Below are positions 39,461-57,756 of a DNA stretch of 64,000 nt, in pieces. The notes beneath the pieces are model-generated. The model did no database searches. It was not told the DNA's origin and was given only the letters and a program-made list of their open reading frames with translations. Origin of the DNA: Desulfofundulus kuznetsovii DSM 6115. GTDB taxonomy: Bacteria; Bacillota; Desulfotomaculia; Desulfotomaculales; Desulfovirgulaceae. The first letter of the stretch is position 1. The number at the start of each line of letters is the position of its first letter. The translations under genes and the position numbers were made by a program. Location: the NCBI RefSeq assembly GCF_000214705.1, contig NC_015573.1, forward strand, positions 12,501-76,500, written 5' to 3'.

Positions 39461-39490
39461 AAGAATTAAAAGGTCCGGAGGTGGGGGTGG

Positions 39491-41279: not shown

Positions 41280-42296
41280 ATGACAGGTCGCGAAAGAGTA
41301 CTAAAAGCCCTGGCGGGGGAAGAAACAGATCGCCTGCCCGTGTTATCTGTTAACCAAACGGCTACCTATGAACAAATGGAGGAATTAAAGGTCTACTGGC
41401 CGGAGGCAAATTTTCGGGCTCAGGAAATGGCCAGGCTTGCTTCCGGGGCTTATACCATCCTGGGTTTTGACGCGGTGCGAGTTCCGTTTTGCCAGACTAT
41501 TGAAGCGGAAGCCCTGGGATGTCCAATTAAGGACGGGGGAAGGAATAATTTGCCAAGCCCTGCAGATTACCCGTATAAACCGGGCGATCAGCCTGCAATG
41601 CCGGGAGATTATCTCCAAAGGGGAAGAATTCCGGAATTAATCGAGGCCTTGAAGCTTTTAAAAGAAATGGTAGGAGACAAGGCTCTGGTCATCGGCGGAA
41701 TTATCGGGCCATACAGTATCGCGGGAAGCCTTATCGGGGCAACCGATCTGATGCGGGCCAGTTTTAGAAAGCCCCACCTGGTTGAGCCCCTCATGGAGGT
41801 CGGGGAACTGGCGGGCCGGCTCCTGGCGCGGGAATTAATTAAAGCCGGGGCCGATGCTATCTGCATAGAAGACATGATGGCCTCGCTGGATATGATCAGT
41901 CCTAAAATCTACCGGGAACTTGTCATGCCCTGGCACAAGAAACTCCTTGACGAACTCCAGGATGTTCCCACGATTATTCACATTTGCGGTAAGCTGGACG
42001 ATGTTATCGAAGATATCGCCAGCCTGGGTGTAACAGCAATAAGCGTCGAAAATAAAGTTGATGCCCCGAAAGCTGTCGAAAAATTAAAGAAATATAACCG
42101 TCATATCCCGCTTATTGGGGGAGTAGATGCTGCCCACACTTTGTTTTCAGGGAATGTAGAAAAGGTTAAGGAGGAAGTAAGAAAAGCTATTGCGGACGGA
42201 TACAGTATGATTGCTCCCGGTTGTTCCATCCCTCCGGCAACCACCATTGCCTGCCTGCGGGCAATGGTAGATGAAGTTATTGGTTATAGTCAATAA
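41280..42296 (+). CDS. mtaA: Methylcobamide methyltransferase, MtaA/UroD family
   Basis: 338 residues, ATG start after AAAGGGG. UroD-fold zinc methyltransferase: opening TGRERVLKALAGEETDRLPV, metal site IIHICGK (HxC) and a distal Cys in MIAPGCSIPP. In methanogens MtaA moves the methyl group from MtaC-bound cobamide to coenzyme M. In a sulfate reducer or acetogen the acceptor is expected to be tetrahydrofolate, directly or through another enzyme. First gene of the operon with MtaB and MtaC, supporting its role in methanol use. The acceptor is not visible from sequence. Confidence 0.88.
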   Translation: MTGRERVLKALAGEETDRLPVLSVNQTATYEQMEELKVYWPEANFRAQEMARLASGAYTILGFDAVRVPFCQTIEAEALGCPIKDGGRNNLPSPADYPYKPGDQPAMPGDYLQRGRIPELIEALKLLKEMVGDKALVIGGIIGPYSIAGSLIGATDLMRASFRKPHLVEPLMEVGELAGRLLARELIKAGADAICIEDMMASLDMISPKIYRELVMPWHKKLLDELQDVPTIIHICGKLDDVIEDIASLGVTAISVENKVDAPKAVEKLKKYNRHIPLIGGVDAAHTLFSGNVEKVKEEVRKAIADGYSMIAPGCSIPPATTIACLRAMVDEVIGYSQ

Positions 42297-42526: not shown

Positions 42527-42557
42527 AATTTGGTTAAGAAAAAGAGGAGGTTTGACC

Positions 42558-43931
42558 ATGGCCAGGTATACTTCCATGGCTTATCAGAGTGCGGACGAGA
42601 TGGTTTTCGGAACGGCAAAGTATCCGGTTAAATACGGGCGCGACTTTGAGGTCGGGGGCGGTTTGGTTTATCCGGAACTGGTTCCCCATCCGCGGCCTGG
42701 TTCCGAGGAAACAAAAAAGAGCCTGGTGCGCGAATATGAAAAAATGGTTAATGATGTTTTAGAGCGCTGTGTTCAGCTGGGTTTCCCCGGGATTCAGGTT
42801 GAGCTGGAACACGTTTACCAGATGACCAGGAATCCAGACTGGGGCGGGGAGATCGCTGCCGCGACCAAGCGCCTGATGGATGACTATTACCAGAAATACG
42901 GTTTGAAGAGCGCCATCAGGGCCACGATAGCCGACTACCGCAAGCCGGACGAGGAAAATATGCGGGACAGCGATGCCCTGAAAAACATCCTGGCTACCTT
43001 CGAGGCTAGCGCAGCTGCCGGAGCGGATAATCTTTCTATTGAGTCTATGGGAGGGAAAGAAATCACCGACTATGCAATTGTTCGCCAGGATATCCGGGGC
43101 GTCCTCTTCGGAATCGGCGTGCTGGGCAGCCGCGACGTAGAATTTCTCTGGAAGAAAATTGTCGAAATTGCCAATAAATATGGGGTTACCCCCGGCGGAG
43201 ATACAGACTGTTCCCAGGCCAACGTAGCCATGTTTATGGCCGGCGGGTACCTGGATAAATCCGTACCGCATACTTTTGCGGCCATTTGCCGTGCCATAGC
43301 CGCGGCCCGCACGCTGGTGGCCTACGAGCAGGGGGCAAAGGGGCCGACCAAGGACTGCGGTTATGAGGATCCCATCATCAAGGCAATTGCGGGAATCCCG
43401 ATCTCCATGGAAGGGAAAACCTGCGCCTGCGCCCATTCCGACCTGCTGGGCAACCTGGTGGCAGCCGTTTGCGACCTTTGGAGCAACGAGGCCGTGGAGT
43501 ACCACGATATGTTCGGTGGAACCACGGCGGCGGTCTTCACGGAAATTCTGGGCTACGACGTTGCCCTGATGAACACAGCGATCAAAATGGGCAAGGCCAA
43601 AGACTTAAGGGATATGATGATTAACTCGGACAAGTACAGGGATACGCACGGGTTCATCCTTTCACCGGACAATGCCTATGAAATCGGAAAGGCTATTGTT
43701 AGCAATGCCGAATCTTATTACAGCCGTGCCCGTGCGGCAGCCATTAAGGCCGCCGAACTGATGCGCGGAGACAGCAAGCTGCTTTTGTCGGACTTTGAAA
43801 AGGAAGTTCTTGAGTCTACCTACAAAGCGCTTCTCTCCCTGCCTGATAAAGAAGAAGACTTTATTGCCGAATGCATTCCGGTTTACCAGAAGCAGGTTAA
43901 GGGCTTCAAACCATCCAATTACGGCCTGTAA
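42558..43931 (+). CDS. mtaB: Methanol:corrinoid protein methyltransferase MtaB
   Basis: 457 residues from ATG 42558 (GAGGAGG upstream). The zinc ligands of methanogen MtaB are all in place: Glu162 in SIESMGGKE, Cys218 in TDCSQAN and Cys267 in KDCGYED, offset by two from the Methanosarcina enzyme (164, 220, 269). It has the same length class. It activates methanol as a zinc alkoxide and transfers the methyl group to Co(I) of MtaC. Partner genes mtaA (upstream) and mtaC (52 bp downstream) complete the system. Strong, specific call. Confidence 0.96.
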   Translation: MARYTSMAYQSADEMVFGTAKYPVKYGRDFEVGGGLVYPELVPHPRPGSEETKKSLVREYEKMVNDVLERCVQLGFPGIQVELEHVYQMTRNPDWGGEIAAATKRLMDDYYQKYGLKSAIRATIADYRKPDEENMRDSDALKNILATFEASAAAGADNLSIESMGGKEITDYAIVRQDIRGVLFGIGVLGSRDVEFLWKKIVEIANKYGVTPGGDTDCSQANVAMFMAGGYLDKSVPHTFAAICRAIAAARTLVAYEQGAKGPTKDCGYEDPIIKAIAGIPISMEGKTCACAHSDLLGNLVAAVCDLWSNEAVEYHDMFGGTTAAVFTEILGYDVALMNTAIKMGKAKDLRDMMINSDKYRDTHGFILSPDNAYEIGKAIVSNAESYYSRARAAAIKAAELMRGDSKLLLSDFEKEVLESTYKALLSLPDKEEDFIAECIPVYQKQVKGFKPSNYGL

Positions 43932-43983
43932 TGTTTTGAGCTACCACTAATCTCCTAATTAAAAAATGTAAGGAGGAAATGAA

Positions 43984-44727
43984 ATGTACTTCCTCGATGA
44001 TTATTCCGGAATTTTTGTGCGCTACGACCTGAAGCGTGAACGGGGCGAGGCCAAGGCCGTAGCCGTTGAGGATGAAGCTTTGCAACAGGTTATCCAGTGC
44101 GTTGTTGACGGTGATACGGACAACATCGGTGAGGTAGTCAGGAAGGCGCTGGAAACCAAGGATCCCATGGAGGTCATTAATGCCCTGGTAAAAGGTATGA
44201 ACGAAGTCAGCCGGCTGTGGGACGAGGGAGTGTATTATTTACCGCAGGCGATTCTTTCCTCCGATGCCATGCTTGAAGGCATAGAAATATGTGAAGAAAA
44301 AATGGGTAAAGCCATGGAGAAGAAAGGCGTCATCATTACGCACACAGCCGAAGGAGATATTCACGACCTGGGTCAGAAAATTGTCAATGCCCTGTTGCGC
44401 GCCAACGGGTACGAGGTGATCGACCTGGGCAAGGATGTGCCTGTTGACGAAGTTGTAGCAGCGGTAAAGCAATACAAGCCCGCCATGCTGACCGGCACTG
44501 CGCTGATGACCACCACCATGACCGCTTTTGAAAGAATATCCAAGCGCCTGACCCGCGAAGGAATCAGCCTGCCCTTTGTCTGCGGCGGCGGGGCCGTTTC
44601 GGAGGAATACGTGACCAGCTTCGACCTGGGTATCTGGGGCAAAGATGCTTCCCAGGCACCGCTGATGGCTGCCGATGCTGTATCTGGTAAGGACTGGCGG
44701 CAACTGCGCGAAAAATGGAATGGATAG
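43984..44727 (+). CDS. mtaC: Methanol-specific corrinoid protein MtaC
   Basis: 247 residues, ATG after AAGGAGG. Cap domain (VINALVKGMNEVSRLWDEGV) and B12 domain with EGDIHDLGQ, where His127 is the lower ligand; TALMTTTM and CGGGAVSEEY complete the site. The N-terminal 35 residues (FLDDYSGIFVRYDLKRERGE) are an extension typical of MtaC and missing from the other corrinoid proteins of the window. Forms the MtaBC complex. Directly followed by a CobW-like gene. Confidence 0.95.
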   Translation: MYFLDDYSGIFVRYDLKRERGEAKAVAVEDEALQQVIQCVVDGDTDNIGEVVRKALETKDPMEVINALVKGMNEVSRLWDEGVYYLPQAILSSDAMLEGIEICEEKMGKAMEKKGVIITHTAEGDIHDLGQKIVNALLRANGYEVIDLGKDVPVDEVVAAVKQYKPAMLTGTALMTTTMTAFERISKRLTREGISLPFVCGGGAVSEEYVTSFDLGIWGKDASQAPLMAADAVSGKDWRQLREKWNG

Positions 44728-44738
44728 GGTGATCGATC

Positions 44739-45701
44739 TTGCTGGTTGATATCGTTAACGGTTTCCTGGGCAGCGGCAAAACCACCTTTATTCAGAACCT
44801 GGTCAAAAAGCTGGTTCCACTCGAGCGGATCGTCGTACTGGTGAATGACTTCGGGGAGATAGTGATTGACGGGGCATTGCTCGCTCAAAACGATCTGGAT
44901 GTGGTGGAGCTGTCCAGCGGTTGTATCTGCTGCAGCCTGGCGGCCGATTTGGGCAGGCAATTGCTCGATATCGCAACCAAAGTCAGGCCTGACCGGCTGA
45001 TTGTTGAGCCGACAGGTGTGGCCACAATCCAGGGATTGCTCTCCGTCATCGGCAGCCTGCGTCTGGAAAAGTATATTGAGGCGGTGAAAGTGATCCTTCT
45101 CATTGATGCAGCCGAATTTAAGGATTTCCACGCCGGCTACCGTACTTTTGTGGAATCCCAAATTTCCCTGGCCGACATCGTGATCATCAATAAATGCGAT
45201 CTGGTTTCCGCCGCTGAAGCCCGGGAGATTCGGAAAACGATATCAACAGTCAACCAGCGGGCAACCGTTGTGGAAACTACTTTTGGACAGGTCGCCCTGG
45301 AGCAAATGGGTGCCCCACCTGCTCAGGGGGACCTGCCTGGTGGTGGCGGAGACGAATGTCTCCGCCACCACCATCACCACCATGAAAAACGCCTCCCGAC
45401 CTATCAGAGCTTTTCCCGGGAATACAAAGGAGTTTTTGATTTAAAGAGCCTCCAAAACTATTTTCAAAGTTTGAACAGCTTGCCCCAGGGTAAAGTCGTA
45501 CGCGCAAAAGGCATCTTCCAGTGCCCGGAAGGGTGGTACCGGATCGATTTCGTCCCGGCGACCGGTATAAAGGCAAATCCCGTAACGGTTAATTTGGATA
45601 ACAGCAGGGTATTGATAATCGGCCTGGACTTGAATCATTTATCGCTTGCCGGGAGTCTGGAAGAGTGCCGGTTGGTTCCTGCCGGGGGAACGGGGGTATA
45701 A
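44739..45701 (+). CDS. CobW-family G3E GTPase with His-rich loop
   Basis: 320 residues, TTG start. Canonical motifs: NGFLGSGKTTFIQNL, SSGCICCSL (CxCC metal site), VEPTGVATIQG, NKCD. A loop of CLRHHHHHHEK before the C-terminal domain should bind metal. The location between mtaC and the RamA-like activator suggests a chaperone for corrinoid/cobalt loading or for zinc delivery to MtaB/MtaA. In Moorella-like operons similar genes accompany methyltransferases. A paralog with altered motifs is at 37.4 kb. Confidence 0.9.
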   Translation: MLVDIVNGFLGSGKTTFIQNLVKKLVPLERIVVLVNDFGEIVIDGALLAQNDLDVVELSSGCICCSLAADLGRQLLDIATKVRPDRLIVEPTGVATIQGLLSVIGSLRLEKYIEAVKVILLIDAAEFKDFHAGYRTFVESQISLADIVIINKCDLVSAAEAREIRKTISTVNQRATVVETTFGQVALEQMGAPPAQGDLPGGGGDECLRHHHHHHEKRLPTYQSFSREYKGVFDLKSLQNYFQSLNSLPQGKVVRAKGIFQCPEGWYRIDFVPATGIKANPVTVNLDNSRVLIIGLDLNHLSLAGSLEECRLVPAGGTGV

Positions 45702-45703
45702 AA

Positions 45704-47347
45704 ATGGCTTATGGAATTGCACTTGACCTGGGAACCAGCGGTTTTCGGGGACAGGCTATCGAGCTTGACAGCGGTGACGTTGTGGCAACTGTAATCACCT
45801 CCCGCCATCCCGTACCGGGCGCAAACGTCATGGATCACCTGAACTTTGCCGTTGATTTTGGGCTGGAGATCGCCCACAACCTGGTTGTTTCGGCTGTCAA
45901 CCAGATTATCGAACGCCTGGGGGTTCCTTTAGAGAAAGTTACTAGACTGGCAGTTTGCGGAAATCCCATTCAATTATCCCTGTTTGAAGAAATCGAAATT
46001 CGCGACCTGGCCTACGCCGGCGAACGCAAGAAAAGGGCACTGGGTGTGATTCCCCCCAGCCGGGATGCCAAGATCCTCCCGGCAAACCAGATCCGCGGGT
46101 TGGCTTTGCTCCCGGATGCAGAGGTATATATTCCGCCGGCAGTCAGACACGAGATCGGTGCGGACGCCCTGGCCATGATGATTTTTTCAGGCCTTCTGGA
46201 CAGGTCAGAGATCACCCTGGTGACCGACTACGGGACCAATGCGGAAATGGCCCTCAAAGTGGGCGATGAAATCTTCACGGGATCTTGTGCCGCCGGACCA
46301 GCTCTGGAAGGACAGCACATCAACTACGGAATGCTGGCGGCGCCGGGAGCAATTTCCGACGTTTGCGCCGAAGGCCCGGGCCACCGCTCATACGTTTTGG
46401 ATGAAAACCTTATACCGCAAGCGGGCGACCTGAACGATCTTGCCCGGGGTACCGTCCTGGAAAAGGGATCCCTGAACGCAACCGGGATTACGGGCACAGG
46501 TGTTGTAGCGCTAATTTACGAAGGACTGCGGGCCAGCCTCATCCGCCTTCCCGAAATCAAAGTCAGCAACGGCTTACTTCACCTGGCTAACGGGGTTACC
46601 TTCAGCAAGCGCGATCTGGAGGAGGCCGGAAAAGCAATCGGCGCTCTGCGGGCCGGCTACCTGACGCTGGCCAAAGAAGCGGGGATTGCGGTGAAAGATA
46701 TCCACTGTGCGTACATGGCCGGGGCCTCCGGAACTTACGTAGATGCCTTTAAAGCCCACCAGATTGGCATGGTTCCCCCGGCCGTAAAAAAGATTTACCA
46801 GATCGGCAATACTTCTCTTGCCTTAGCCAGACAGCTGGTCCGGCAACCTGCATTGCTGTCCGAGCTACAAGATCTGGCGGGGAAGTTAAGGGCCCGGCAC
46901 TGTATGTTCGGGATGTCGAAAGACTTTGCCAACGCCTACCTGTTAGAGCTATCTTTCTGGGGAGAAGGAATGCCCTGGGAGCAATACTGGAAACTGGCGA
47001 AGTCCTTTAAATTACCCGAGCTTCCGTTGCCGGAAGGAGCTCCTGAAATCCACCGGATAGTATCCCGGGATATTGAAGTGCTCGGTCAACGGGGGCTTAA
47101 CGTGATCGAGCAAGTCGGTCATGTATACCACGCATTTTTCCCCGGTTGCCAGTTGTGCGGACTTTGCGTGGAAGAGTGCCCGGAAAAGGCCCTGGACACA
47201 TCGGAAACCAACGAAAACAGGGGCGGCTTGCTTTGCCTGAGAGCCGACCGCTGCAATGGAACCGCCTGCCTGCGCTGTGAACGAGTTTGTCCCGAAAAAA
47301 TTTTTTCTCTAAAAAAATTTCTGGTCTGCTTGCAGGATGACAGATGA
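45704..47347 (+). CDS. RamA-like reductive activase of methyltransferase corrinoid proteins
   Basis: 547 residues from ATG 45704. The N-terminal ASKHA ATPase part reads YGIALDLGTSGFRGQAIELD, with VTDYGTNAEMAL and AGPALEGQHINYGM. The C-terminus has two 4Fe-4S sites, CQLCGLCVEECP and CNGTACLRCERVCP (CxxxxCxxCxxxC), the same pattern as methanogen RamA (539 residues). RamA uses ATP and low-potential electrons to return Co(II) to Co(I). It should serve MtaC here. This differs from the RACo-type activator at 49.5 kb, so the island carries both designs. Confidence 0.92.
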   Translation: MAYGIALDLGTSGFRGQAIELDSGDVVATVITSRHPVPGANVMDHLNFAVDFGLEIAHNLVVSAVNQIIERLGVPLEKVTRLAVCGNPIQLSLFEEIEIRDLAYAGERKKRALGVIPPSRDAKILPANQIRGLALLPDAEVYIPPAVRHEIGADALAMMIFSGLLDRSEITLVTDYGTNAEMALKVGDEIFTGSCAAGPALEGQHINYGMLAAPGAISDVCAEGPGHRSYVLDENLIPQAGDLNDLARGTVLEKGSLNATGITGTGVVALIYEGLRASLIRLPEIKVSNGLLHLANGVTFSKRDLEEAGKAIGALRAGYLTLAKEAGIAVKDIHCAYMAGASGTYVDAFKAHQIGMVPPAVKKIYQIGNTSLALARQLVRQPALLSELQDLAGKLRARHCMFGMSKDFANAYLLELSFWGEGMPWEQYWKLAKSFKLPELPLPEGAPEIHRIVSRDIEVLGQRGLNVIEQVGHVYHAFFPGCQLCGLCVEECPEKALDTSETNENRGGLLCLRADRCNGTACLRCERVCPEKIFSLKKFLVCLQDDR

Positions 47348-48408
47348 CCATGAAGGCAAAAGAGCGCATCCTGGGGCTATTAGAAGGCAGGCAGGTTGAT
47401 CGCGTGGCCTGCTTCAGCGGAATGGGCACAGTTTGGGGGCAGGCCCTTAAGGAATATGGCTACCATTTCGCCGAGGTTCACCATACAGCCGACAAATTAG
47501 CTCAAGTGGCTGTATTTCCCGCACAGGCGTATGAGTATGAATGTGCGGTGGTCCCCTTTGACATATGCATAGAGGCAGAAATCCTGGGGTGCGAAGCCAA
47601 TTTTTATCCCCAGCACAAGAAGGGTCTTTATCCGAAAATCGTTCGCCAGGTTATTTCCACAGAAAACGATCTCTCTTTGCCGGTTCCCGACCGGGTAAGC
47701 GACAGGGCCCGTGTTCCCGTGGTTACCGAGGCCATCCAGCGGGTAAAAGAACTGGTCGGCGATAAGGTACCTGTCGGATCATATGTGATGGGACCATATA
47801 CCCTGGCCGGGCAGGCTATGGATATAAACATGCTCCTGCGGCTAACCATCCGCAAACCGGAAAAAATTATGGATTTACTTTCCAGGCTGACGGAATTAAT
47901 CCTCAAGCTTTGTACCTGCTACGAAGAAGCAGGTGTGGATTACCTTACCGTGCGGGAAATGAGTGCCACGGCAGATATCTTGCCCCCTCAGATATTTACC
48001 AAAATGATTAAGCCTCACTTGAAAAACATCATGGCCAATATACGGGTACCAAAGATTCTCCACATCTGCGGCAATTCGCTGCCGGTTATTCACGAAATGC
48101 TGGATTGCGGAGCAAATGCCATCAGCGTTGAAAATAAAAACGGACTGGCGGAAACAAGAACTCGGACAGGGCCGGAACCACTTGTCTTTGGTAACCTCGA
48201 TGGTTACGGGGTGCTGGTTAATGGAACTCCGCAGGAAGTGGAAGCTGAAGTAGTCCGGTGCCTCATAGATGGTACTGACGGTCTCTGGCCCAGTTGTGAA
48301 ATCTCCCTTGAGGCTCCAGAAGAAAACCTGATCGCCATGATCAAAGCGACCAAAAAAAATGGGGATAAATTATGGTTTAGAGCGAAACTTCGTCAGGGTA
48401 ACAATTAA
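47344..48408 (+). CDS. UroD-family corrinoid methyltransferase (module B, copy 1)
   Basis: 354 residues; ATG overlaps the activase stop (ATGA). UroD fold with zinc-type ligands in LHICGNS (HxC) and LWPSCEI. It is closer to the gene at 52.8 kb than to MtaA: both start K-R-LGL-EG-VDR-AC-SGMG, share SYVMGPYTLAGQ/SWLLGPFTLAGQ, and keep TGPEPL/IGPEPL. In O-demethylase systems of acetogens and Desulfitobacterium the first methyltransferase can be of this fold. It may act on a methoxylated or other methylated substrate, or be a second MtaA. Substrate unknown. Confidence 0.85.
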   Translation: MTMKAKERILGLLEGRQVDRVACFSGMGTVWGQALKEYGYHFAEVHHTADKLAQVAVFPAQAYEYECAVVPFDICIEAEILGCEANFYPQHKKGLYPKIVRQVISTENDLSLPVPDRVSDRARVPVVTEAIQRVKELVGDKVPVGSYVMGPYTLAGQAMDINMLLRLTIRKPEKIMDLLSRLTELILKLCTCYEEAGVDYLTVREMSATADILPPQIFTKMIKPHLKNIMANIRVPKILHICGNSLPVIHEMLDCGANAISVENKNGLAETRTRTGPEPLVFGNLDGYGVLVNGTPQEVEAEVVRCLIDGTDGLWPSCEISLEAPEENLIAMIKATKKNGDKLWFRAKLRQGNN

Positions 48409-48796
48409 TAAACACCATCATCTGGCACGGAATTTACTTATCCCATACCAAGCAAGTTAACTATCGGGATTAGATCAATGTTACAATATCGACGCAAACC
48501 AGCGCAAACATGTTTTCCATTCAACAGCAACTGATCACCAAATTGCCTGCTTAACAGGATCTCGTAGGGTTTTGTGCTACCCTTCATGACATAATTTATG
48601 GTCATCTTCTCCATTCATCGGTTGAAATAAGCAATTCGCGGAGCTTTTTCCCCCATTAGGGAAAGAAAACTTCCGCTGGAAGGGGGTGTAATTTAGAATT
48701 TTATCAGGGAGAGGCGGTTAATTTTTGTTTTATGTTTAGTAGGAGAGCAAATATCATCAACGCCTTAATCAAAATTAATGAAAGGAGTATGCAGTA
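48409..48796 (+). other. 388-bp intergenic region before the fourth corrinoid protein
   Basis: No ORF. It contains short hairpins (TTTCCC/GGGAAA near 48645-48667, CTTCC/GGAAG near 48671-48683) and a weak promoter-like pair TTAACT-19-TACAAT (48457-48487). A GGCACG-N4-TTACT word at 48424-48438 recalls a sigma-54 site but lacks the -12 GC. Confidence 0.4.
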
Positions 48797-49462
48797 ATGA
48801 CACCGGAAAGGGAGAAAGAAATTCTTGAAAGGTTGGCCGAGGCCGTACTGAATTATGACGAGGACGCTGTGCGCCAGGCAGCCCAGGAGGCACTGGATGA
48901 AGGCATGGACGCAAACAAAGCCGTTTTTGATGGTATGGTAGAGGGAATGAAGAAGGCCGGTGACCTGTATGAGCAACAGGAATACTTTGTCCCCGAGCTT
49001 CTCATGTGCGCCGATGCTATGTACGCCGGTCTGGAAATACTCCGCCCCCATATGCAGGCAAAGAAAGATGATAGTAAAGTTAAAGGCCAGGTGGTCATGG
49101 GAGTAGTGCAGGGAGACGTGCACGATATCGGCAAAAACCTGGTGAAGATCATGTTTGAGGCAGCCGGTTTTGAGGTGCACGATCTGGGTAAAGACGTGCC
49201 TTTGGAAAAGTTTGTGGAGGAACAACTGAAAACTGATTCGGAGATTGTTGCCCTCTCGGCCATGATGACCACCACCATGGTGGGCATGAAAGATATTATT
49301 AAAGCTATTAAGGAGAAGAACCCCAAGGCCAAAATTATGATTGGCGGCGCTCCGGTAACCGATGAAATTGCCGACCGTTTTGGCGCGGATGGTTATGCCA
49401 AAGATGCCAGCAACGCCCTAAAGGAAGCCATAAACATGATCGCTTCTTTAAGAGAGTTGTAA
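48797..49462 (+). CDS. B12-binding methyltransferase corrinoid protein (module B)
   Basis: 221 residues, ATG after AAAGGAG. Cap domain (AVFDGMVEGMKKAGDLYEQQ) and B12 domain with GDVHDIGKN (His ligand), ALSAMMTTTM and IGGAPVTDEI. The shortest of the four corrinoid proteins in the window and of MtbC/MtvC size. It is followed by a RACo-type activator and an MtrH-family methyltransferase. These are the partners found for corrinoid proteins of O-demethylases, so it probably carries the methyl group between a UroD-type enzyme and the MtrH-type enzyme. Confidence 0.94.
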   Translation: MTPEREKEILERLAEAVLNYDEDAVRQAAQEALDEGMDANKAVFDGMVEGMKKAGDLYEQQEYFVPELLMCADAMYAGLEILRPHMQAKKDDSKVKGQVVMGVVQGDVHDIGKNLVKIMFEAAGFEVHDLGKDVPLEKFVEEQLKTDSEIVALSAMMTTTMVGMKDIIKAIKEKNPKAKIMIGGAPVTDEIADRFGADGYAKDASNALKEAINMIASLREL

Positions 49463-49480
49463 AGGGAGGATGAAGCAAAA

Positions 49481-51430
49481 GTGCAGCACCAGGTAATCTT
49501 TCAGCCTTCCGGGCGCCGGGGAATGGTGGAGCGCGGTATCACCCTGCTGGAAGCGGCCAGGGAGCTGGGCGTAGACATTGAAAACCTCTGTGGCGGCGCC
49601 AAGGTCTGCGGGAAATGCAAGGTTAAAATAGAAGAAGGCTTTTTTGAAAAATTCGGCATCGACTCCAGCATGGAGCATCTTTCCCCACTCCAGGAGGAAG
49701 AAAGGGATTGCCTTACCGAAGCGGAACTGGCGGATAATTACCGTCTGGCCTGCTGCTGCGAAGTGCTGGGGGATGTACTGGTCTTCGTGCCCGAAGAAAG
49801 CAGGGGAGCCAAGCAGGTGGTGCTGGAAACCGGCAAGGAACGGAAATTCAACCTGAACCCCGCCGTACGCAAATATTATGTGGAAATGCCGGAAGCCACC
49901 CTGGAGGACCACCGGGGGGATTTCGAGCGCCTGCGGGAAGCCCTCCACGAGCAGCACGGCCTGCCGCTAGACCTGGAAATCGACTATTTTGTGCTGCGGG
50001 ACCTGCCCAATGCGGTCCGGGAAGGCCAGTGGAAGGTCACGGCGACTGTCTGGTGTGACAGGGAAATCATCCGGGTGGAACCGGGCTTAAAGGATACCCT
50101 GGTCGGCCTGGCGGTGGACATCGGTACCACTACGGTGGCCGCCTACCTCTGCGATTTACGCACCGGCCAGGTGCTGGTGGTAGACTCCATGATGAACCCC
50201 CAGGTGCGCTACGGCGAAGATGTGCTCTCCCGGATTACCTACTCCATGATGAATGAGGACGGTCTGGAGAAAATGCACCAGGCCATTATCGAAGGGCTGA
50301 ACACCCTGGCCCAGCGCATGACCGAAAAGGTCGGCCTTTTGCCCACCGATATCGTTGATATGACCCTGGTCTTCAACACCGCCATGCAGCATATCGCCCT
50401 CTGCATTGATCCCAAATTCCTCGGCCGTTCTCCTTTTGCCCCGGGGACCAAGCAATCAAGGAACATCAAGGCCCGCGATCTGGGCGTTAACATCTGTCGC
50501 GCCGCCATCATCCATACCCTTCCCGTGGAATCGGGCTTTGTCGGCCCGGACAACGTGGCCGTGCTCATTGCCGAAGAACCTTACCGGGAACCGGAGAAAA
50601 TCCGCCTCATCATTGACATCGGTACCAACGGGGAAATCGATCTGGGCAACGAAAAGCGTCTGCTCTGCACTTCCTGCGCCACCGGCCCGGCCCTGGAGGG
50701 GGCCCAGATCAAGTTCGGCATGCGTGCCGCACCGGGAGCCATTGAAAAGATACGCATCAACCCCGAAACCCTGGAGGTTTCCTACAAGGTTATCGGACAG
50801 GAGAAGTGGTACCCGGAAATTCAAAAAACTGAGGCCAAAGGTATTTGTGGTTCCGGGATTATCGATATGGTGGCTCAGCTTTTCCGTTCCGGCGTCATCG
50901 ATCGCTCCGGCCGGTTTAACATGAAGATCAATCACCCCCGGGTCCGCCGCGGTGCCGACGGTAAACCGGAGTTTGTGGTGGCCTGGGCCGAGGAAACGGC
51001 CATCGGCAAGGATATCACCTTCACCCAGGCCGACGTCCGGGCGGTGCAACTGGCCAAGGCGGCCCTGTACGTGGGGGCCAAATATCTGATGGAGAAGCTG
51101 GGCGTGGATAAGGTGGACAGCGTCACCCTGGCCGGCGCCTTTGGCAGTTACATTGATCGGGAAAGCGCCATGGTCATCGGTATGTTTCCGGACTGTGATC
51201 TGGAAAACGTGCAGGCCGTGGGCAACGCTGCCGGGGACGGCGCCAAGCTGGCCCTGCTGGACGTGGGCAAGCGGGAAGAGGCGGCCTGGATTGCCCGGCA
51301 GGTGGAATTTGTGGAAACGGCCATTGAGCCGGACTTCCAGACCCGTTTTGCCGCCGCCATGGCGTTACCGCACTCAACGGATAAGTTCCCGCATATCCAG
51401 CACATCCTGGATGCCATTCCCAAACGGTAA
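49481..51430 (+). CDS. RACo-type corrinoid activation protein (2Fe-2S plus ASKHA ATPase, DUF4445)
   Basis: 649 residues, GTG start after GGGAGG. N-terminal ferredoxin domain with CGGAKVCGKC and a later Cys-rich RLACCC. Linker 90-200, then the ASKHA domain GLAVDIGTTTVAAYL ... IDIGTNGEIDLG ... CATGPALEGAQIKFGM and LAGAFGSYID. Members reduce Co(II) of corrinoid proteins with ATP in acetogens (RACo, AcsV, OdmC-type). It has no C-terminal 4Fe-4S pair, unlike the RamA-like protein. The gene position directly after the corrinoid protein argues for that client. Confidence 0.93.
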   Translation: MQHQVIFQPSGRRGMVERGITLLEAARELGVDIENLCGGAKVCGKCKVKIEEGFFEKFGIDSSMEHLSPLQEEERDCLTEAELADNYRLACCCEVLGDVLVFVPEESRGAKQVVLETGKERKFNLNPAVRKYYVEMPEATLEDHRGDFERLREALHEQHGLPLDLEIDYFVLRDLPNAVREGQWKVTATVWCDREIIRVEPGLKDTLVGLAVDIGTTTVAAYLCDLRTGQVLVVDSMMNPQVRYGEDVLSRITYSMMNEDGLEKMHQAIIEGLNTLAQRMTEKVGLLPTDIVDMTLVFNTAMQHIALCIDPKFLGRSPFAPGTKQSRNIKARDLGVNICRAAIIHTLPVESGFVGPDNVAVLIAEEPYREPEKIRLIIDIGTNGEIDLGNEKRLLCTSCATGPALEGAQIKFGMRAAPGAIEKIRINPETLEVSYKVIGQEKWYPEIQKTEAKGICGSGIIDMVAQLFRSGVIDRSGRFNMKINHPRVRRGADGKPEFVVAWAEETAIGKDITFTQADVRAVQLAKAALYVGAKYLMEKLGVDKVDSVTLAGAFGSYIDRESAMVIGMFPDCDLENVQAVGNAAGDGAKLALLDVGKREEAAWIARQVEFVETAIEPDFQTRFAAAMALPHSTDKFPHIQHILDAIPKR

Positions 51431-51445
51431 AAGGAGGAGTTTTGC

Positions 51446-52381
51446 ATGTTTAAACTGAGCCGTCCGCAGCGGGTGTGCCGCATCGGCCGGTGGAACATCG
51501 GTGGGCAGCCCGGGGAAAACCCGCCCCTTTTGATTTCCTCCATGTTCCACAACGGTGATAAAATCCTCGAGTCACGTAAAGAGAGGAAATTTGACCGGGA
51601 AAAGGCCAAAGAATATGTTAAACGGCAGGAAGAACTTTCGGCCCAAACGGGCGTACCGGCCCTGGTGGCCATGGTGGCCACGTCTTTGGATGAGATGAAG
51701 ACCTACATTGACTTTTTCCTGAGCATCAGCGACCAGCCCTTCGGGATCGACATGTGGGTGGAAAAAACCCGCCTGGAAGTGGCCGAATACATTGCCCGGC
51801 TGGGCATCCAGGACCGGGTGCTGTACAACAGCATCACCCCCTGGGACAAGGACATCCCCGGCCAGGTGGCCCGCCTGAAGGAACTGGGCATCAAGCACGT
51901 GGTGGTCCAGGCCTTCAACCAGGAAGACCAGACCCCCAAAGGGCGGGTAACCGGGCTCAAGAAGATGCTGGACATAATTGGCGAGGATACCTTTGAAACC
52001 ATCCTGGTGGATACTGCCGTAATGAACCTGCCCTCCACCTCTTTCTCCTGTATTGCCTGCCGGTTGGTCAAGGAGGAGTTTGGCTGGCCCGCCGGGGTGG
52101 CTTCCTCCAACGGCACCTACATGTGGAAGGCGGCCCGGGAAATGTGGGGCAGTGAAGGTTTCAACGCTATGAATGCCGCCGGGCAGGCCATTGCCGCCCT
52201 GCTCTGGAGCGACCTGCTGTTCAGCGGTCCAATTGTCAACATTCCGAAAATTATCCCTGCCGTCACCACCGCCAGTCTGATGCTGTCAACACTGGTTTAC
52301 GACGAAACGGGTAAACTGCCGCCGAACCAGGATCACCCCCTGTACAAATTCTTTGCAGACTTTGTGAAGCAGTTGCAGTGA
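51446..52381 (+). CDS. MtrH-family methylcorrinoid:tetrahydrofolate methyltransferase
   Basis: 311 residues, ATG after AAAAGGAGG. Opening LSRPQRVCRIGRWNIGGQPG and the pterin-binding TIM-barrel pieces (SSMFHNGD, VAMVATSLDEM, DMWVEKTRLE, VVVQAFNQED, DTAVMNLPST) mark the tetrahydromethanopterin S-methyltransferase subunit H / MtgA / MtvA group. In acetogens and sulfate reducers such enzymes pass the methyl group from the corrinoid protein to tetrahydrofolate. It may serve both modules, because no other folate-type methyltransferase is visible in the island. Confidence 0.92.
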   Translation: MFKLSRPQRVCRIGRWNIGGQPGENPPLLISSMFHNGDKILESRKERKFDREKAKEYVKRQEELSAQTGVPALVAMVATSLDEMKTYIDFFLSISDQPFGIDMWVEKTRLEVAEYIARLGIQDRVLYNSITPWDKDIPGQVARLKELGIKHVVVQAFNQEDQTPKGRVTGLKKMLDIIGEDTFETILVDTAVMNLPSTSFSCIACRLVKEEFGWPAGVASSNGTYMWKAAREMWGSEGFNAMNAAGQAIAALLWSDLLFSGPIVNIPKIIPAVTTASLMLSTLVYDETGKLPPNQDHPLYKFFADFVKQLQ

Positions 52382-52430
52382 TCAGGGTGTGCCAGGTGCC
52401 GGATATCAAAAATTAAGGGGGAAATCGGTT

Positions 52431-52826
52431 ATGCCTAAAGTTAATGAAGAAATGAGGAATATAGTTGAAAAGGAACAGTGTTTTATTGTTACCGCCGATA
52501 AAACGGGGCAGCCTTCCGCTGCCCCCAAGGGCTCCATGCTGGTGCTTGATGAGCAAACACTGGCCTACGGGGAACTGGTAGGCAAACAGACCTACCGCAA
52601 CCTGCTGGAAAACCCTAAGGTGGCGGTGGTGGTTACCGACCGCCAGGCGCTGAAAGGCTACCGGTTCATGGGCCGGGCTGAGCTGCTCTCCGAAGGGCCA
52701 CTTTATGACCGTTTTGCCGAAAAGTTTGCTCAAATGGGCCTGCCCAAGCCGAAGGCAGCGGTCAAAATTATTGTGGAAGAAATTTACGATTTGTCTGTGC
52801 GCAACCCGGGTGAAAAAATTTGTTAA
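52431..52826 (+). CDS. Pyridoxamine 5'-phosphate oxidase-fold (split-barrel) protein
   Basis: 131 residues from ATG 52431 (AAGGGGG upstream). Split-barrel flavin-binding fold: CFIVTADKTGQPSAAPKGSM, TYRNLLENPKVAVVV, GYRFMGRAELL. It is shorter than true PdxH and more like the small FMN-binding proteins of anaerobes. In the island it is flanked by the MtrH-type and UroD-type methyltransferases, 12 bp before the latter. A flavin-linked redox or corrinoid/heme-handling role is a guess. Confidence 0.85.
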   Translation: MPKVNEEMRNIVEKEQCFIVTADKTGQPSAAPKGSMLVLDEQTLAYGELVGKQTYRNLLENPKVAVVVTDRQALKGYRFMGRAELLSEGPLYDRFAEKFAQMGLPKPKAAVKIIVEEIYDLSVRNPGEKIC

Positions 52827-52838
52827 GGAGGTTACCCC

Positions 52839-53891
52839 ATGTCCATGAAACCGCGGGATAGGGTTTTGGGTCTTTTTGAAGGAAAAGAAGTGGACCGCAT
52901 GGCCTGTTACAGTGGTATGGGTAATGTGACCACGGCGGGCCTGGAACAGCTGGGCTACAAGTTTGCCGAAGTGCACACGGATCCGGTAAAAATGGCCAAT
53001 TCGGCGGCCACTTCCTACAAGCTGTTTGGTTATGAGTGTGCCGTCGTTCCCTATGATCTGTGCGTGGAAGCGGAGGCCCTGGGCTGCGTCATGAACGCCT
53101 ATGAGGACGTGGCGCACCTTTTGTATCCGACCATTAAGGAGAAGCTGATCCATTCCCCCGATGAAATAACCGGGGTGACCATTCCGGACAATATAGCCGA
53201 GCGGGGCCGTTTCCCCCTGGTGATGGAGGCTATTACCCTGCTCAAAAAAGACATTGGCGATGAAGTGGCCATCGGTTCCTGGCTGTTAGGTCCCTTTACC
53301 CTGGCCGGCCAGTTGATGGACTTGAACGACCTGTTCAAGCTGGTCTTTAAAAAACCCAATGAAGTGAACATTTTACTGGACAGGCTGGCCGACCTGATCA
53401 TCACCATGGCCGCCAGATACCGGGAGGCCGGGGCGGACTACATCACCATCCGGGAAATGGGTGCCCCCACCGACGTGCTCAGCCCGCGGAGCTTCCGCCA
53501 GGTCATTAAACCGCATCTGGAAAAGATCTTTAAAAACATTCCGTCGCCGAAAATCCTGCACATCTGCGGGGATACCAACCTGATTATCGGCCTCATGAAC
53601 GAGTGCGGTGCCGACGCCATCAGCGTGGAGACGAAAAACGACCTGGCCAAGAGCCGGGCCACCATTGGTCCTGAACCGCTGCTCTTCGGCCACGTGGACG
53701 GATATAACGTCCTCTGCAACGGGACGCCGGAAGACGTGGAGAAAGCGGTCCTGGCCAGTATTGAAGGCGGCGTGGACGCCGTTTGGCCCTCCTGCGACAT
53801 CTGGCCGACCGCTCCCCTGGAGAACCTGCGAGCTATGGTGGATACGGTTAAGAAATACGGTGCGGAAAAGTGGGCTCGCAAGAACAGGTAA
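52839..53891 (+). CDS. UroD-family corrinoid methyltransferase (module B, copy 2)
   Basis: 350 residues, ATG after AAGGAGGTTACC. HxC site in ILHICGDTN and distal Cys in VWPSCDIW. Closely related to the 47.3 kb gene over its whole length, e.g. DRVLGLFEGKEVDRMACYSG, YECAVVPYDLCVEAEALGC (both have the CxxxEAE-LGC stretch) and NGTPEDVEKAV. Two such paralogs flank the corrinoid protein, RACo and MtrH genes. One could be the substrate-specific methyltransferase I, the other a second specificity. A 12-bp hairpin follows the gene. Confidence 0.87.
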   Translation: MSMKPRDRVLGLFEGKEVDRMACYSGMGNVTTAGLEQLGYKFAEVHTDPVKMANSAATSYKLFGYECAVVPYDLCVEAEALGCVMNAYEDVAHLLYPTIKEKLIHSPDEITGVTIPDNIAERGRFPLVMEAITLLKKDIGDEVAIGSWLLGPFTLAGQLMDLNDLFKLVFKKPNEVNILLDRLADLIITMAARYREAGADYITIREMGAPTDVLSPRSFRQVIKPHLEKIFKNIPSPKILHICGDTNLIIGLMNECGADAISVETKNDLAKSRATIGPEPLLFGHVDGYNVLCNGTPEDVEKAVLASIEGGVDAVWPSCDIWPTAPLENLRAMVDTVKKYGAEKWARKNR

Positions 53892-53942: not shown

Positions 53943-53998
53943 TACCTGGAATGATATTTTGAGCTGTTGTTTAGTTATTTAGAATGGAGGCTTTCAGG

Positions 53999-54745
53999 AT
54001 GGCCATGGAAAGGGCACTGAAACGTTCCCTGACTTCCTTTGAAATAAAAAGATACTTGCTGGAACTGGGGGCCACCCTTGTGGGTTTTGGCGATGTCAGC
54101 CAGGGCCTGGCCGGGGAATTACGGCACCTGCCGGTAGCCATTTCCCTGGCCATCCGGCATCCCTCCCCCGGGCGAAACCTGATTCATACTACCCGGGGAC
54201 CAATTTATTCTAACCGCTACCAGCAGATCGATTTAAAACTGGAACAATTGCAAAAGCGCCTGGTGTCCTTGCTGAAGAGCTACGGATTTAAATGCCTGGC
54301 CATACCCCCCGATTCCCACCGGCATGATAACAGGTTTGTGGCCCGCCTGTACCCCCTCTTTCCCCACAAGACGGCGGCCACCTGTGCCGGCCTGGGCTGG
54401 ATCGGCAAGAACGGCCTTCTGGTGAACGAAACCTACGGCCCCCGCTTGAGCTGGGCTACGGTGCTGACCAATGCTCCCCTGGAGGTCTCTGCCGCTCCAT
54501 ATGTTTCCGGCCGCTGCGGCAAATGCCGCCGCTGTGTGGAAGCCTGCCCGGCCGGAGCCATTGCCGACCGGGAGTGGGTGCGGGATGAAGGGCTGGTGCC
54601 CCATATCGATGTGGAGGCCTGCCGTCGCCAGCTGGAGAAAAACCGGCAGCAGGTGGGGGAGGATGTTTGCGGCCTCTGCATCCTGGCCTGCCCCCGGGGT
54701 AATATACAATTGAAAGAATTGAGGGATGGCCGGTGGCTAAGGTAG
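53999..54745 (+). CDS. QueG-like double 4Fe-4S protein
   Basis: 248 residues if started at ATG 53999, because GGAGG lies 8 nt upstream; ATG 53984 is the longer option. The segment CAGLGWIGKNGLLVNETYGPR and the cluster motifs CGKCRRCVEACP and CGLCILACPRG resemble the epoxyqueuosine reductase / reductive dehalogenase-like group (COG1600). It is much shorter than QueG (about 380) and lacks its C-terminal HEAT part. QueG is itself B12-dependent, so a corrinoid redox partner role near these genes is attractive, but unproven. Overlaps the next gene by 13 bp. Confidence 0.83.
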   Translation: MAMERALKRSLTSFEIKRYLLELGATLVGFGDVSQGLAGELRHLPVAISLAIRHPSPGRNLIHTTRGPIYSNRYQQIDLKLEQLQKRLVSLLKSYGFKCLAIPPDSHRHDNRFVARLYPLFPHKTAATCAGLGWIGKNGLLVNETYGPRLSWATVLTNAPLEVSAAPYVSGRCGKCRRCVEACPAGAIADREWVRDEGLVPHIDVEACRRQLEKNRQQVGEDVCGLCILACPRGNIQLKELRDGRWLR

Positions 54746-55047
54746 AAATCTTTGGCGGTATTTGCGGTTTTAATACCGTAGTTTCAGCCACAGCGGAACA
54801 AAGGCGTATGGTGGAGCTGAAGGTGGAAAGCGAATGCCCAAACTGGCAAAAGGTGCAGGAGCAATTGAAAAAGGTCGACGCGTATAAGGAACTGTTCGGC
54901 AAGCTGCATGAGGGTGAGGTATACCGCCTTAGCTCTCCCTTTATTCCCCACCTGGCCTGTTTGGTGCCTGCCGGGATTATGAAGGCCGTCGAGGTGGCCG
55001 CCGGGTTGGCCCTCCCCCGGGATGGGTTCATCAGGGTAACCGGTTAA
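54733..55047 (+). CDS. Small Cys-conserved protein, DUF6951-like (copy A)
   Basis: 104 residues, GTG start inside the end of the QueG-like gene, so likely co-translated. It aligns without gaps over 80 residues with the gene at 55.2 kb. Shared are Cys11 in GICGF, Cys35 in SEC, FGK at 55-57, Tyr64, His73 and Cys76 in CLVP. The pattern suggests a metal or Fe-S site. No known enzyme fold was recognised; I recall such proteins near corrinoid genes of Peptococcaceae under the name DUF6951, but could not check this. Confidence 0.75.
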   Translation: MAKVEIFGGICGFNTVVSATAEQRRMVELKVESECPNWQKVQEQLKKVDAYKELFGKLHEGEVYRLSSPFIPHLACLVPAGIMKAVEVAAGLALPRDGFIRVTG

Positions 55048-55094
55048 AATATTTATCCGGGCGCCGGTCAAATCGGCCAAAAACTTCTCACCCG

Positions 55095-55123
55095 TTGCCA
55101 TACCAGGGTATTTATTTTATAAT
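55095..55123 (+). promoter_or_regulatory. Promoter of the DUF6951-like copy B (TTGCCA-17-TATAAT)
   Basis: -35 TTGCCA at 55095-55100, 17-bp spacer, -10 TATAAT at 55118-55123, 45 bp before the ATG. Confidence 0.75.
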
Positions 55124-55167
55124 TAATTAGTTAAAGTTAGGTTTTTCCGGGAAGAGAGGTAGGCGAC

Positions 55168-55488
55168 ATGGCCAAAGCCAAAGTTATGGCTGGCGCCTGT
55201 GGGTTTACCAGTGTGATAAAAGTCACTAAAATAGGCAAGATGAAAGTGCGGGTGCAAATCATCAGTGCCTGCCAGGACCTGCGCAGTTTAAACGAGGACC
55301 TGGCCGAGGTGGACTGCAGCCGCAATGTCTTCGGCAAAATGATCGATTCGGTAATATACCAGAAGGCCAGCAAAAGGCTGAAGCATCCCGACTGCCCGGT
55401 GCCCTGCGCCATAATCAAAACCATTCAGGTGGAACTGGGCGGAGCCGTTCCCAGGGACGTGATCATTAAAATTGACGCCCATGGTTAG
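55168..55488 (+). CDS. Small Cys-conserved protein, DUF6951-like (copy B)
   Basis: 106 residues, ATG after GGGAAGAGAGG. Paralog of copy A with the same Cys11, Cys35, His73 and Cys76 positions. It has two extra cysteines, Cys50 (VDC) and Cys80 (CPVPC), where copy A has Ala. It has its own consensus promoter and terminator, so it can be expressed alone. The last gene of the corrinoid island before the IS607 remnant. Function unknown; metal or cluster binding is inferred only from the cysteines. Confidence 0.75.
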   Translation: MAKAKVMAGACGFTSVIKVTKIGKMKVRVQIISACQDLRSLNEDLAEVDCSRNVFGKMIDSVIYQKASKRLKHPDCPVPCAIIKTIQVELGGAVPRDVIIKIDAHG

Positions 55489-55527: not shown

Positions 55528-55552
55528 GTCCCGTAAAAACGGGACTTTTTTC
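55528..55552 (+). terminator. Terminator after DUF6951-like copy B
   Basis: GTCCCGT (55528-55534), AAAA, ACGGGAC (55539-55545), then six T. End of the corrinoid island's coding part. Confidence 0.93.
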
Positions 55553-56096: not shown

Positions 56097-57529
56097 TTAA
56101 TTGGCCTGCTGTTTCTGATAATAACGCTGGAGTAAAAGTTCTTTTACTTTCTTATATGGCATATACCGGGTTATTTCTTCATCGTGCAATCTCATCTTCA
56201 GGTTTATACCCGAAACCTGGTCAGCGTCGCATGTAAAACCGCATTTTTGGCATTTGAAAACGTCCCCGTGGCGGTTCTTCGCGTCCACCCACCCGCACAC
56301 GGGACACGTCTGGCTGGAGTACGCCGCGTTCACCGGACCGGGGTCGGTGGCGGAGTAAATGTAATTTTTGTATCCCAGCCGCTCTTTGATGATGCTGCGC
56401 TGCCAGCCGCTCACCTTGCGGGAGAGACCCCTGCTCCCGGCCTTCCCGCGCAGATGGGCAAGGTCTTCGTAGGCAATTATCTTCGGCCGGCGTTCTTTGT
56501 AGAATTCGTTAAACGCCCGGTTGATTTCGTTCTCGCACCTGGTTCGGTATTTTTGTTTCTTTTGGTTTGCTTGGTAAGGCCCAGGTTGTGTTTTAAGATC
56601 CGCCGGGCCTTGTTCGGGTCCTGTTCGAGGAACTTCCGGCGCAGCGCCCACAGCTTGCCGCGCTTCCGGCTCTTGTCCAGGATATGGTCGGACATTTCCT
56701 GCAGGGCCTCACCGTATTCGGGCCGGTATTTTTTGCCCGTGTCGTCGGTGAACACCTCAGTCACGCCCAGGTCGATGCCCGCTTCTTCTTCGCCGGGCGG
56801 ATAAGTCCGCGGTTCCCTGGTCAGATGGATTTCCACGCAGTTTTCTTCGGGAATCAGAACCACCCGCACGTTGCCTTCTATGGCGTGCACGCCAGCCAGC
56901 GGGATGATCACCCTCTCGCCGGGGGTTAGAGTCGCTACAGCAATGTACTGCCGCTTTCCGGTGGCAAACACCCGGTACATCTGCTGGTCGACGGTGAAGC
57001 TGCGGGCCTTCTTAACCCGGGGCTTCCTGCCCAGAACGCGCCGGAAGGTACGCTTTAAGTACTTTCTCACCCTGGCGCGGCCTCCCGCGTCCAGCTTTAT
57101 CTCTTCGCTGACAATATCTTCACCGGTGAAGACTGCCCGGATGCGTTTCCAGTTGCGACCGTGCTTCACGTGCCTGTACAGCAACCAGAAGGCGTAGTGC
57201 TTTTCTTCATCGGTCAGCCCTTCGTGGCGGTAAAGGTACTCTTTGACTTCGGCAATGGCGGCCTCCCACTGCCTCTCCAGGGTGTAAAGAGCATCTTCCA
57301 GGGCCAGCTTCCACTGCCGGGCCTGCAGGCCAAAGGGACTGACAAAACCGGCGGAAACCAGTTCGTCCCGCAGCTTGCGCTTTTCGCCCAGATAGTGCAG
57401 GTATTTTACATGCCCGTACTCCACCAGGAAGGCGTCCTTCTGCCGGGCATATGCATCGGCAGTTTCAGTTATCCTGGCCCACTTCTCATTGTTCAGCGGC
57501 AGGCTCTTCTGTCTTACTGTCTGCTGCAT
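56097..57529 (-). pseudogene. tnpB: tnpB, frameshifted IS607/IS605-type RNA-guided nuclease
   Basis: Two overlapping frames make one TnpB. The first part (57529 to about 56555) holds RuvC-I AGIDLGVTEVF. The second (to 56097) holds RuvC-II IIAYEDLAHL, zinc ribbon CPVCGWVDAKNRHGDVFKCQ with KCGF, and RuvC-III Asp in CDADQVSGINL. The frames join in the A-rich segment near 56549-56570 (AAACCAAAAGAAACAAAAAT on the minus strand), a one-base slip. Either the gene is dead or a slippage event restores it. Catalytic residues are otherwise kept. Confidence 0.85.
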
Positions 57530-57756
57530 CTTTCAGCGCCTCCCGGACGGTTCTGGTGAGCTTTCGCGCCTTATATGTCCTCTGGCCGTACAACCTGGCC
57601 GCGAAGTGCTGGACGATGCTGATCAGGTCTTCGGTCAACTCCCGGGCCGGGGACATGTCGTAAAGCAACCAGTTTACCCTCTTTATCCCAAGCGCGGAGC
57701 GTTGATACGCTGACACCAAGTTTTTCGGCAAACTCGCTTATTGTGTAAAGTTTCAT
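57486..57756 (-). pseudogene. tnpA: tnpA, IS607 serine recombinase with internal deletion
   Basis: The start at 57756 encodes the MerR-like head KLYTISEFAEKLGVSVSTLRAW. After about 33 residues the frame breaks. The C-terminal helix of TnpA (ELTEDLISIVQHFAARLYGQ and RTYKARKLTRTVREAL) continues in another frame to 57486. The catalytic core with the YARVS nucleophile region is missing, about 110 codons. The protein cannot catalyse recombination. It overlaps the tnpB start by 44 bp, as in intact elements. Confidence 0.85.

Follow-up and report, generated by a model that had tools for sequence, protein, structure and literature searches.

DUF6951 proteins encoded beside the methanol methyltransferase operon of Desulfofundulus kuznetsovii: a suggestive likeness to IscU and a link to corrinoid methyltransferase gene clusters

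It is only partly understood how anaerobes maintain their corrinoid methyltransferases in the reduced state and provide them with metal. In Desulfofundulus kuznetsovii 17T, the genes Desku_0050-0060 have been described as the methanol methyltransferase operon (PMC5770442; PMC10907483), and their products are more abundant on methanol with cobalt and B12 (PMC5770442). Here we report the analysis of two neighbouring genes that lie beside such a cluster in a 64,000-nucleotide stretch of the D. kuznetsovii DSM 6115 genome (NC_015573.1), called the window, to whose positions all coordinates refer. Their products, copy 1 and copy 2, are small proteins of 104 and 106 residues, and both belong to Pfam PF22263 (DUF6951), an existing family of no stated function. 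A first-pass annotation made from the sequence had suggested a new family of metal or corrinoid accessory proteins; the membership in PF22263 rules out a new family, and the accessory role is examined below. The reading that we tentatively favour, and rate as somewhat short of probable, is that DUF6951 proteins act as IscU-like iron-sulfur (Fe-S) carriers or redox partners that work with a QueG-like protein in corrinoid reactivation.

The eleven window genes at 41280-53891 match Desku_0050-0060 in their number and in where MtaA, MtaB, and MtaC stand, and the pair sits one gene beyond the last MtaA. The published operon, in contrast, stops before the QueG-like gene and the pair, which are not mentioned in the operon descriptions of the two reports (PMC5770442; PMC10907483); by the agreement in gene order, the QueG-like gene would correspond to Desku_0061 and the pair to Desku_0062 and Desku_0063. 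The same stretch resembles the Type 1 mlp cluster in bringing together a corrinoid protein, a Ram/RACE activator, and several MtaA-like proteins (PMC10418091), but adds MtaB and an MtrH-like methyltransferase. The three first-described clusters of that type are without a tetrahydrofolate methyltransferase (PMC10418091), whereas the MtrH-like gene of the window (51446-52381) may have such a role. No DUF6951-like protein is named in the results or discussion of Kountz and Balskus (PMC10418091).

The third system for comparison is the IscU/SufU/NifU N-terminal scaffold (PF01592), to which DUF6951 is similar in three cysteines at nearly equal spacing and bears a suggestive likeness in its predicted fold. 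In human ISCU, the cluster ligands include Cys69, Cys95, and Cys138 (PMC6098246), and in IscU the Asp that follows Cys-Gly is critical for cluster delivery, its substitution stabilising the cluster (PMC2644719). No paper naming DUF6951 was found in the open literature, subscription papers and preprints being outside the search, and among the matches listed for IscU together with corrinoids none treats the question, as judged from titles and the beginnings of abstracts. Within the reach of these searches, there is no published account of the IscU likeness, of the corrinoid-linked branch, or of the coupling to a QueG-like gene. If the favoured reading is true, DUF6951 would be a missing accessory factor for growth on methanol and other methylated compounds, the IscU superfamily would gain a function beyond general Fe-S assembly, and one purified protein would suffice to put a domain so far without known function to the test.

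The DUF6951 pair and its conserved residues

Copies 1 and 2 align by BLASTP at 33% identity and 59% positives over 102 positions (E = 2e-24, as a single comparison). The absence of gaps had been noted from the sequence over 80 positions, and it holds over this longer length. Both proteins match PF22263 across the whole model at 124.9 and 116.1 bits, respectively, far above the gathering cut-off of 27, and their likeness is therefore not due to chance; that they form a real pair of related small proteins, as first proposed, is confirmed. Equally present in both are C11, C35, H73, C76, and the F-G-K and C-x-V-P words, and the two further cysteines that had been ascribed to one copy are C50 and C80 of copy 2. 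Searches of the 3,601,386-base genome with copy 2 and with the PF22263 model retrieve only these two members. Neither copy has a match in NCBIfam, and none was found with copy 1 in the plasmid records searched. The overlap of the copy 1 start with the end of the QueG-like open reading frame (ORF) is also real (Table 1). For copy 2, a consensus promoter and a terminator had been claimed; both sites exist, the promoter-like one (TTGCCA-17-TATAAT) agreeing with the consensus at 11 of 12 positions, but they are weak evidence because shuffles of the region give comparable numbers (1.0 +/- 1.0 promoters and 1.6 +/- 1.5 terminators).

Of the 299 genomes sampled from the phylum, 44 contain PF22263, as does one of 14 control genomes, that of Methanosarcina acetivorans, whose locus is not among the 71 loci fetched for comparison. 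The latter comprise 63 stretches of up to 20 kb around matches and eight loci from named genomes; together with the window they provide 80 distinct sequences, one broken member (L079) having been dropped. C11, C35, and C76 are each found in 80/80 of these sequences, G12 in 79, Lys84 in 77, and His73 in 74, the remaining rows at the last position having Cys (five) or Asn (one). The five Cys depend on the alignment, since a second alignment sets the C-C of those rows beside the His column, and the Asn row (L039) has a His one residue earlier. Thus, of the four residues that the first-pass annotation had called invariant, the cysteines deserve the term and the histidine is nearly invariant. Judged from sequence, this residue set points to metal binding, and the metal half of the proposed accessory role is well supported by the three cysteines, the histidine, and the IscU-like predicted fold. 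All 39 aligned members match PF22263; weak single matches of members to other Pfam families, such as FeS_assembly_P in 2/39 (best E 0.038), are taken for chance.

A variant with C-C-x-x-C in place of H-x2-C was observed in L080 (3873-4205), L081 (9841-10167), L082 (9811-10161), L083 (9841-10173), and L077 (9839-10168). A corrinoid protein gene ends 45-46 bases upstream in L080, L081, and L083, and L081 is also adjoined by thioredoxin, DsbD-like, MtaA-like, and rhodanese genes, perhaps as a corrinoid and sulfur-redox cluster; L077 has no such neighbours. The broken gene of L079 (9874-10311) loses the family sequence after its C-P-V-P word and is probably frameshifted. Finally, a Desulfofundulus-type cluster whose copy 2 is 83% identical stands on a contig filed under an Armatimonadetes metagenome-assembled genome (L038), which would reflect either a recent transfer or mis-binning.

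Predicted fold and comparison with IscU

AlphaFold2 models of the two copies were obtained from shallow alignments of 16 and 15 sequences (predicted local distance difference test scores, pLDDT, are given in Table 1). In the copy 2 model, three strands lead into a helix, which is followed by a short strand and two further helices. C11 sits in the stretch that joins strands 1 and 2, C35 in the one that joins strand 3 to the first helix, and H73 and C76 come directly before the last helix. In a Foldseek search with copy 2, ranks 1-13 are all IscU, the best row having E 0.061, probability 0.90, and a template-modelling (TM) score of 0.48. VIA-align aligned IscU/SufU chains at Z up to 6.5 for copy 2 (4eb5_C, 92 residues at 3.6 A), the corresponding maximum for copy 1 being 6.1. 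In its alignments, model residues 1-94 fall on residues 27-126 of E. coli IscU (3lvl_A) and 59-158 of human ISCU (8pk8_D), which places C11 at position 37 of the former and 69 of the latter, provided that no gap precedes it. An IscU-type fold of both copies is, on these models, suggestive and not proven.

The cysteine spacing is close to that of IscU. The commonest spacings in DUF6951 are 24 (66/80) and 41 (55/80), against 25 and 44 in 27/27 NifU_N proteins of relatives, and random position triples fall within 2 and 3 residues of both spacings in 0.5% of draws, with tolerances that were chosen after the data had been seen. DUF6951 proteins also share with IscU the Gly after the first Cys and a His near the third. 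The two differ, however, in the Asp located two residues after the first Cys (C-G-D), which occurs in 0/80 DUF6951 sequences versus 27/27 NifU_N proteins and is replaced (C-G-F for C-G-D), and in the LPPVK (HscA) motif, a feature of IscU only, which was not seen on inspection of the 39 aligned DUF6951 sequences. They differ further in gene context: a cysteine desulfurase, searched for by phmmer with the genome's own IscS-like protein as the query, is found in 0/71 DUF6951 loci versus 21/30 NifU_N loci, the single match in the window being weak (E 6e-6) and lying about 50 kb away from the pair. The genome carries two true NifU_N matches elsewhere. Membership in IscU proper was considered for DUF6951 and is ruled out by the sequence, Asp, and desulfurase-neighbour tests.

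DUF6951 may work like a stable-cluster variant of IscU. C11, C35, and C76, together with H73 or a nearby Cys, would then form one site on an IscU-type fold, which would most likely hold an Fe-S cluster. A stable carrier or redox partner appears likelier than a general assembly scaffold, because C-G-F replaces C-G-D and no cysteine desulfurase gene is near.

Several comparisons weigh against a relationship with IscU. No Foldseek row for copy 2 passes E 0.001, and no VIA-align Z of at least 8 was obtained for either copy. The top VIA-align row of copy 2 is a lipoate-ligase domain (Z 6.8), with CO-dehydrogenase-type domains tied, and domains of these types follow close behind IscU for copy 1. The Pfam search gave no NifU_N match for the pair and the 39 aligned members, HHalign of DUF6951 with NifU_N gave a probability of 0.2%, below that of the reversed control (22%), and sequence and profile searches of the PDB returned 0 matches; moreover, the third Cys stands in H-x2-C rather than in the H-C of IscU. 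The likeness could thus be a coincidence of a common alpha/beta arrangement, DUF6951 being then a thiol or metal-binding protein whose fold is a different, unnamed one, as the insignificant Foldseek and Z scores, the tied domains, and the missing sequence link in HHalign and the PDB profile search would allow. We consider such a coincidence improbable, given the uninterrupted run of IscU in the first thirteen Foldseek ranks and the three invariant cysteines near the IscU ligand spacing. The more far-reaching form of the favoured reading, in which DUF6951 would be a so far unrecognised member of the IscU superfamily, having lost the Asp needed for cluster release and become a dedicated Fe-S carrier or redox partner paired with the QueG-like protein, so that B12 methyl-transfer clusters carry an Fe-S carrier of their own, seems rather doubtful.

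Branches, gene neighbourhoods, and genome-level distribution

The DUF6951 tree (80 rows, 110 columns) was built by a quick method, with many forks unresolved. The rule for methyltransferase context asked for a corrinoid protein, MtrH, RACo, or QueG-like gene at up to 10 kb, or else for an MtaA-like gene at up to 3 kb; the context of the two window rows was set by hand. Near-identical genomes are counted separately (one contig appears as both L035 and L096), and some loci stop at contig ends, so that a gene can look alone. By this rule, 48/80 rows are in methyltransferase context, and the context label changes 10 times on the tree versus 25.3 times after shuffling, with 0/500 shuffles as low. 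Copy 2 falls into a 32-row clade with a support of 99 in the Shimodaira-Hasegawa-like approximate likelihood ratio test (SH-aLRT), all 32 rows of which are in context under the rule that includes the QueG-like gene. Recounts for this clade cover its 31 fetched rows, leaving out that of the window. A corrinoid protein, MtrH, or RACo lies within 10 kb in 25 of them, three have an MtaA-like gene only (0.9-4.1 kb away), and three (L033, L067, L071) a QueG-like gene only. When QueG-like genes are not counted, 28/31 clade rows are in context (MtaA-like genes counted up to 10 kb), as are 43 of the 82 members of the loci. Copy 1 belongs to a 7-row clade (support 95), every row of which is in context; the part of the tree that contains this clade has weak support (67), and 30 of its 46 rows stand alone.

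The supported clade of copy 2 does not include copy 1; according to this tree, the two copies are thus old paralogs, and a recent tandem duplication is ruled out on the same ground. The copy 2 branch would be dedicated to corrinoid methyltransferase gene clusters, and copy 1 would derive from elsewhere in the family and have been recruited to the cluster in Desulfofundulus and its relatives. A survey of neighbourhoods for corrinoid genes, proposed by the first-pass annotation as a check of the accessory role, has a divided outcome: the corrinoid link holds in the neighbourhoods of the copy 2 branch (28/31 rows) and, at the level of whole genomes, for the family as described below, but not in the neighbourhoods of the 32/80 tree rows that stand alone.

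Within 3 kb of the 31 copy 2 clade rows we found QueG-like genes in 15, corrinoid protein genes in 15, triple helix-turn-helix (HTH) regulator genes in 12, and CobW genes in 9. QueG-like genes overlap copy-2-type genes in 8 loci, where the length of the overlap depends on taking the earliest possible start codon. Overlaps with copy-1-type genes occur in the window, in L035 (= L096) and L039, and, given the start chosen there, also in L037. The best hint that the QueG-like protein and DUF6951 are physically linked is this shared coupling, seen in both branches. The alignment of the QueG-like protein with QueG and reductive dehalogenases is confined to its second half, within residues 127-243. 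In the favoured reading, the pair and the QueG-like 2x[4Fe-4S] protein would together keep the corrinoid system active, either by electron transfer to the Fe-S proteins that reactivate the corrinoid or by supplying them with clusters. The favoured reading is in turn weakened by 11 of the 31 copy 2 clade rows, in which a triple-HTH regulator and a corrinoid protein adjoin the gene and QueG-like genes are absent within 3 kb, by the 32/80 tree rows alone under the context rule, and by zinc fitting the ligand set equally well. A role in methanol metabolism only is unlikely: D. thermosubterraneus DSM 16057 and D. australicus DSM 11792 are reported to have the incomplete operon form of strain TPOSR, without mtaB (PMC10907483), and both species keep both copies (L034, L035).

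The main rival is a zinc carrier, in which the C-C-H-C site would hold zinc and, with a CobW-type GTPase, supply the zinc-dependent methyltransferases (MtaA/MtaB type) of the cluster. It owes this place to subfamily 13 of the CobW-type COG0523 proteins, which co-localises with corrinoid methyltransferases, including the zinc-dependent mtaA and mtaB (PMC2770081). CobW is the next gene after the copy-2-type gene in 9/31 clade rows, with a NarI-like cytochrome b and an HdrD-like protein behind it in one locus group; the window has CobW-type genes at 37384 and 44739, and IscU itself is often found with zinc instead of a cluster (PMC6098246). We nevertheless regard zinc delivery as unlikely, given that CobW lies within 3 kb in only these 9/31 rows, that the QueG-like partner is by its motifs an Fe-S and not a zinc protein, and that lone members of the family have no adjoining methyltransferase.

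The triple-HTH regulator, 11 of whose 12 occurrences within 3 kb of clade rows are on the same strand, brings in another explanation, namely that DUF6951, this regulator, and a corrinoid protein form a sensor module through which the operon would be controlled according to corrinoid, methyl, or metal state. A homologue of the regulator, with up to 65% identity, is encoded in the window at 38600-39376, and the methanol operon responds to cobalt and B12 (PMC5770442). Yet the pair lies about 15 kb from this gene, and of the 15/31 rows with a QueG-like gene within 3 kb only one also has the regulator, which makes a sensor role of DUF6951 very unlikely. The regulator was also observed apart from this question: homologues of the window protein (42-65% identity) lie by DUF6951 genes in 12 other loci, and in the window it is followed by two corrinoid proteins (38600-40975). 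The combination of triple-HTH regulator and corrinoid proteins suggests a corrinoid-sensing regulatory module.

At the genome level, the corrinoid link of the whole family is strong. In counts that ignore kinship and take corrinoid-protein matches up to 10 per genome, RACo-type activators are present in 44/44 genomes with DUF6951 versus 119/255 without, at least five corrinoid-protein matches in 40/44 versus 47/255, and a strong MtrH match (E <1e-40) in 21/44 versus 10/255. Some of the matches to the RACo C-terminal domain have one in-frame stop (TAA, TAG, or TGA), as at G000:C1:2688825-2689580 and in several other genomes. Acetyl-CoA synthase (CdhC) is likewise enriched, being found in 36/44 genomes with DUF6951 versus 54/255 without, and DUF6951 could on this account be a general Fe-S or sulfur housekeeping protein of strict anaerobes, whose family-wide corrinoid link would reflect lifestyle and that of copy 2 a local recruitment; the 32/80 lone tree rows and the varied contexts of the lone members fit such a role. 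Against it, the association with at least five corrinoid matches persists both in CdhC-positive genomes (34/36 DUF6951 holders versus 28/54 others) and in CdhC-negative ones (6/8 versus 19/201), kinship again uncorrected, and we hold a housekeeping role to be quite unlikely.

Gene order and other features of the locus

The features of the locus are collected in Table 1. The cluster runs in the order MtaA, MtaB, MtaC, CobW, RACo/Ram, MtaA, corrinoid protein, RACo, MtrH-like, PNPOx, MtaA, QueG-like, copy 1, copy 2.

Table 1. Features of the D. kuznetsovii window, in window positions
Feature	Position	Strand	Support and remarks
Copy 1 (D1), DUF6951 protein, 104 residues, GTG start	54733..55047	+	PF22263 2e-36; model pLDDT 86.1; C11 C35 H73 C76
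Copy 2 (D2), DUF6951 protein, 106 residues, ATG start	55168..55488	+	PF22263 1.1e-33; model pLDDT 87.7; C11 C35 H73 C76 plus C50, C80
Sigma-70-like promoter site 5' of copy 2	55095..55123	+	weak evidence
Terminator-like hairpin and T run 3' of copy 2	55528..55545	+	weak evidence
QueG-like protein, two 4Fe-4S motifs	53984..54745	+	Fer4_16 (Pfam); TIGR00276 and RDH below cut-offs; end overlaps copy 1 start by 13 bases
MtaA-type URO-D methyltransferase	52839..53891	+	profile matches
PNPOx-type flavoprotein	52389..52826	+	profile match
MtrH-like methyltransferase	51446..52381	+	profile matches
RACo-type corrinoid activator with 2Fe-2S domain	49481..51430	+	profile matches
Corrinoid protein	48797..49462	+	profile matches
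MtaA-type URO-D methyltransferase	47344..48408	+	
RACo/Ram-type activator with 4Fe-4S domain	45665..47347	+	
CobW-type (COG0523) GTPase	44739..45701	+	
MtaC-type corrinoid protein	43984..44727	+	
MtaB, methanol-cobalamin methyltransferase	42552..43931	+	PF12176, 6.4e-219
MtaA-type URO-D protein	41280..42296	+	by gene order, probably the first gene of the published methanol operon
Second CobW-type gene	start 37384		
Triple-HTH regulator homologue	38600-39376		

Behind the pair, at 56097-57756, lies a broken mobile element with TnpB-like ORFs in two frames, one of them with a Cas12f1-like TNB domain and the longer one without a Pfam match. The same region holds a MerR-type HTH fragment on the minus strand, and the element is reminiscent of IS607.

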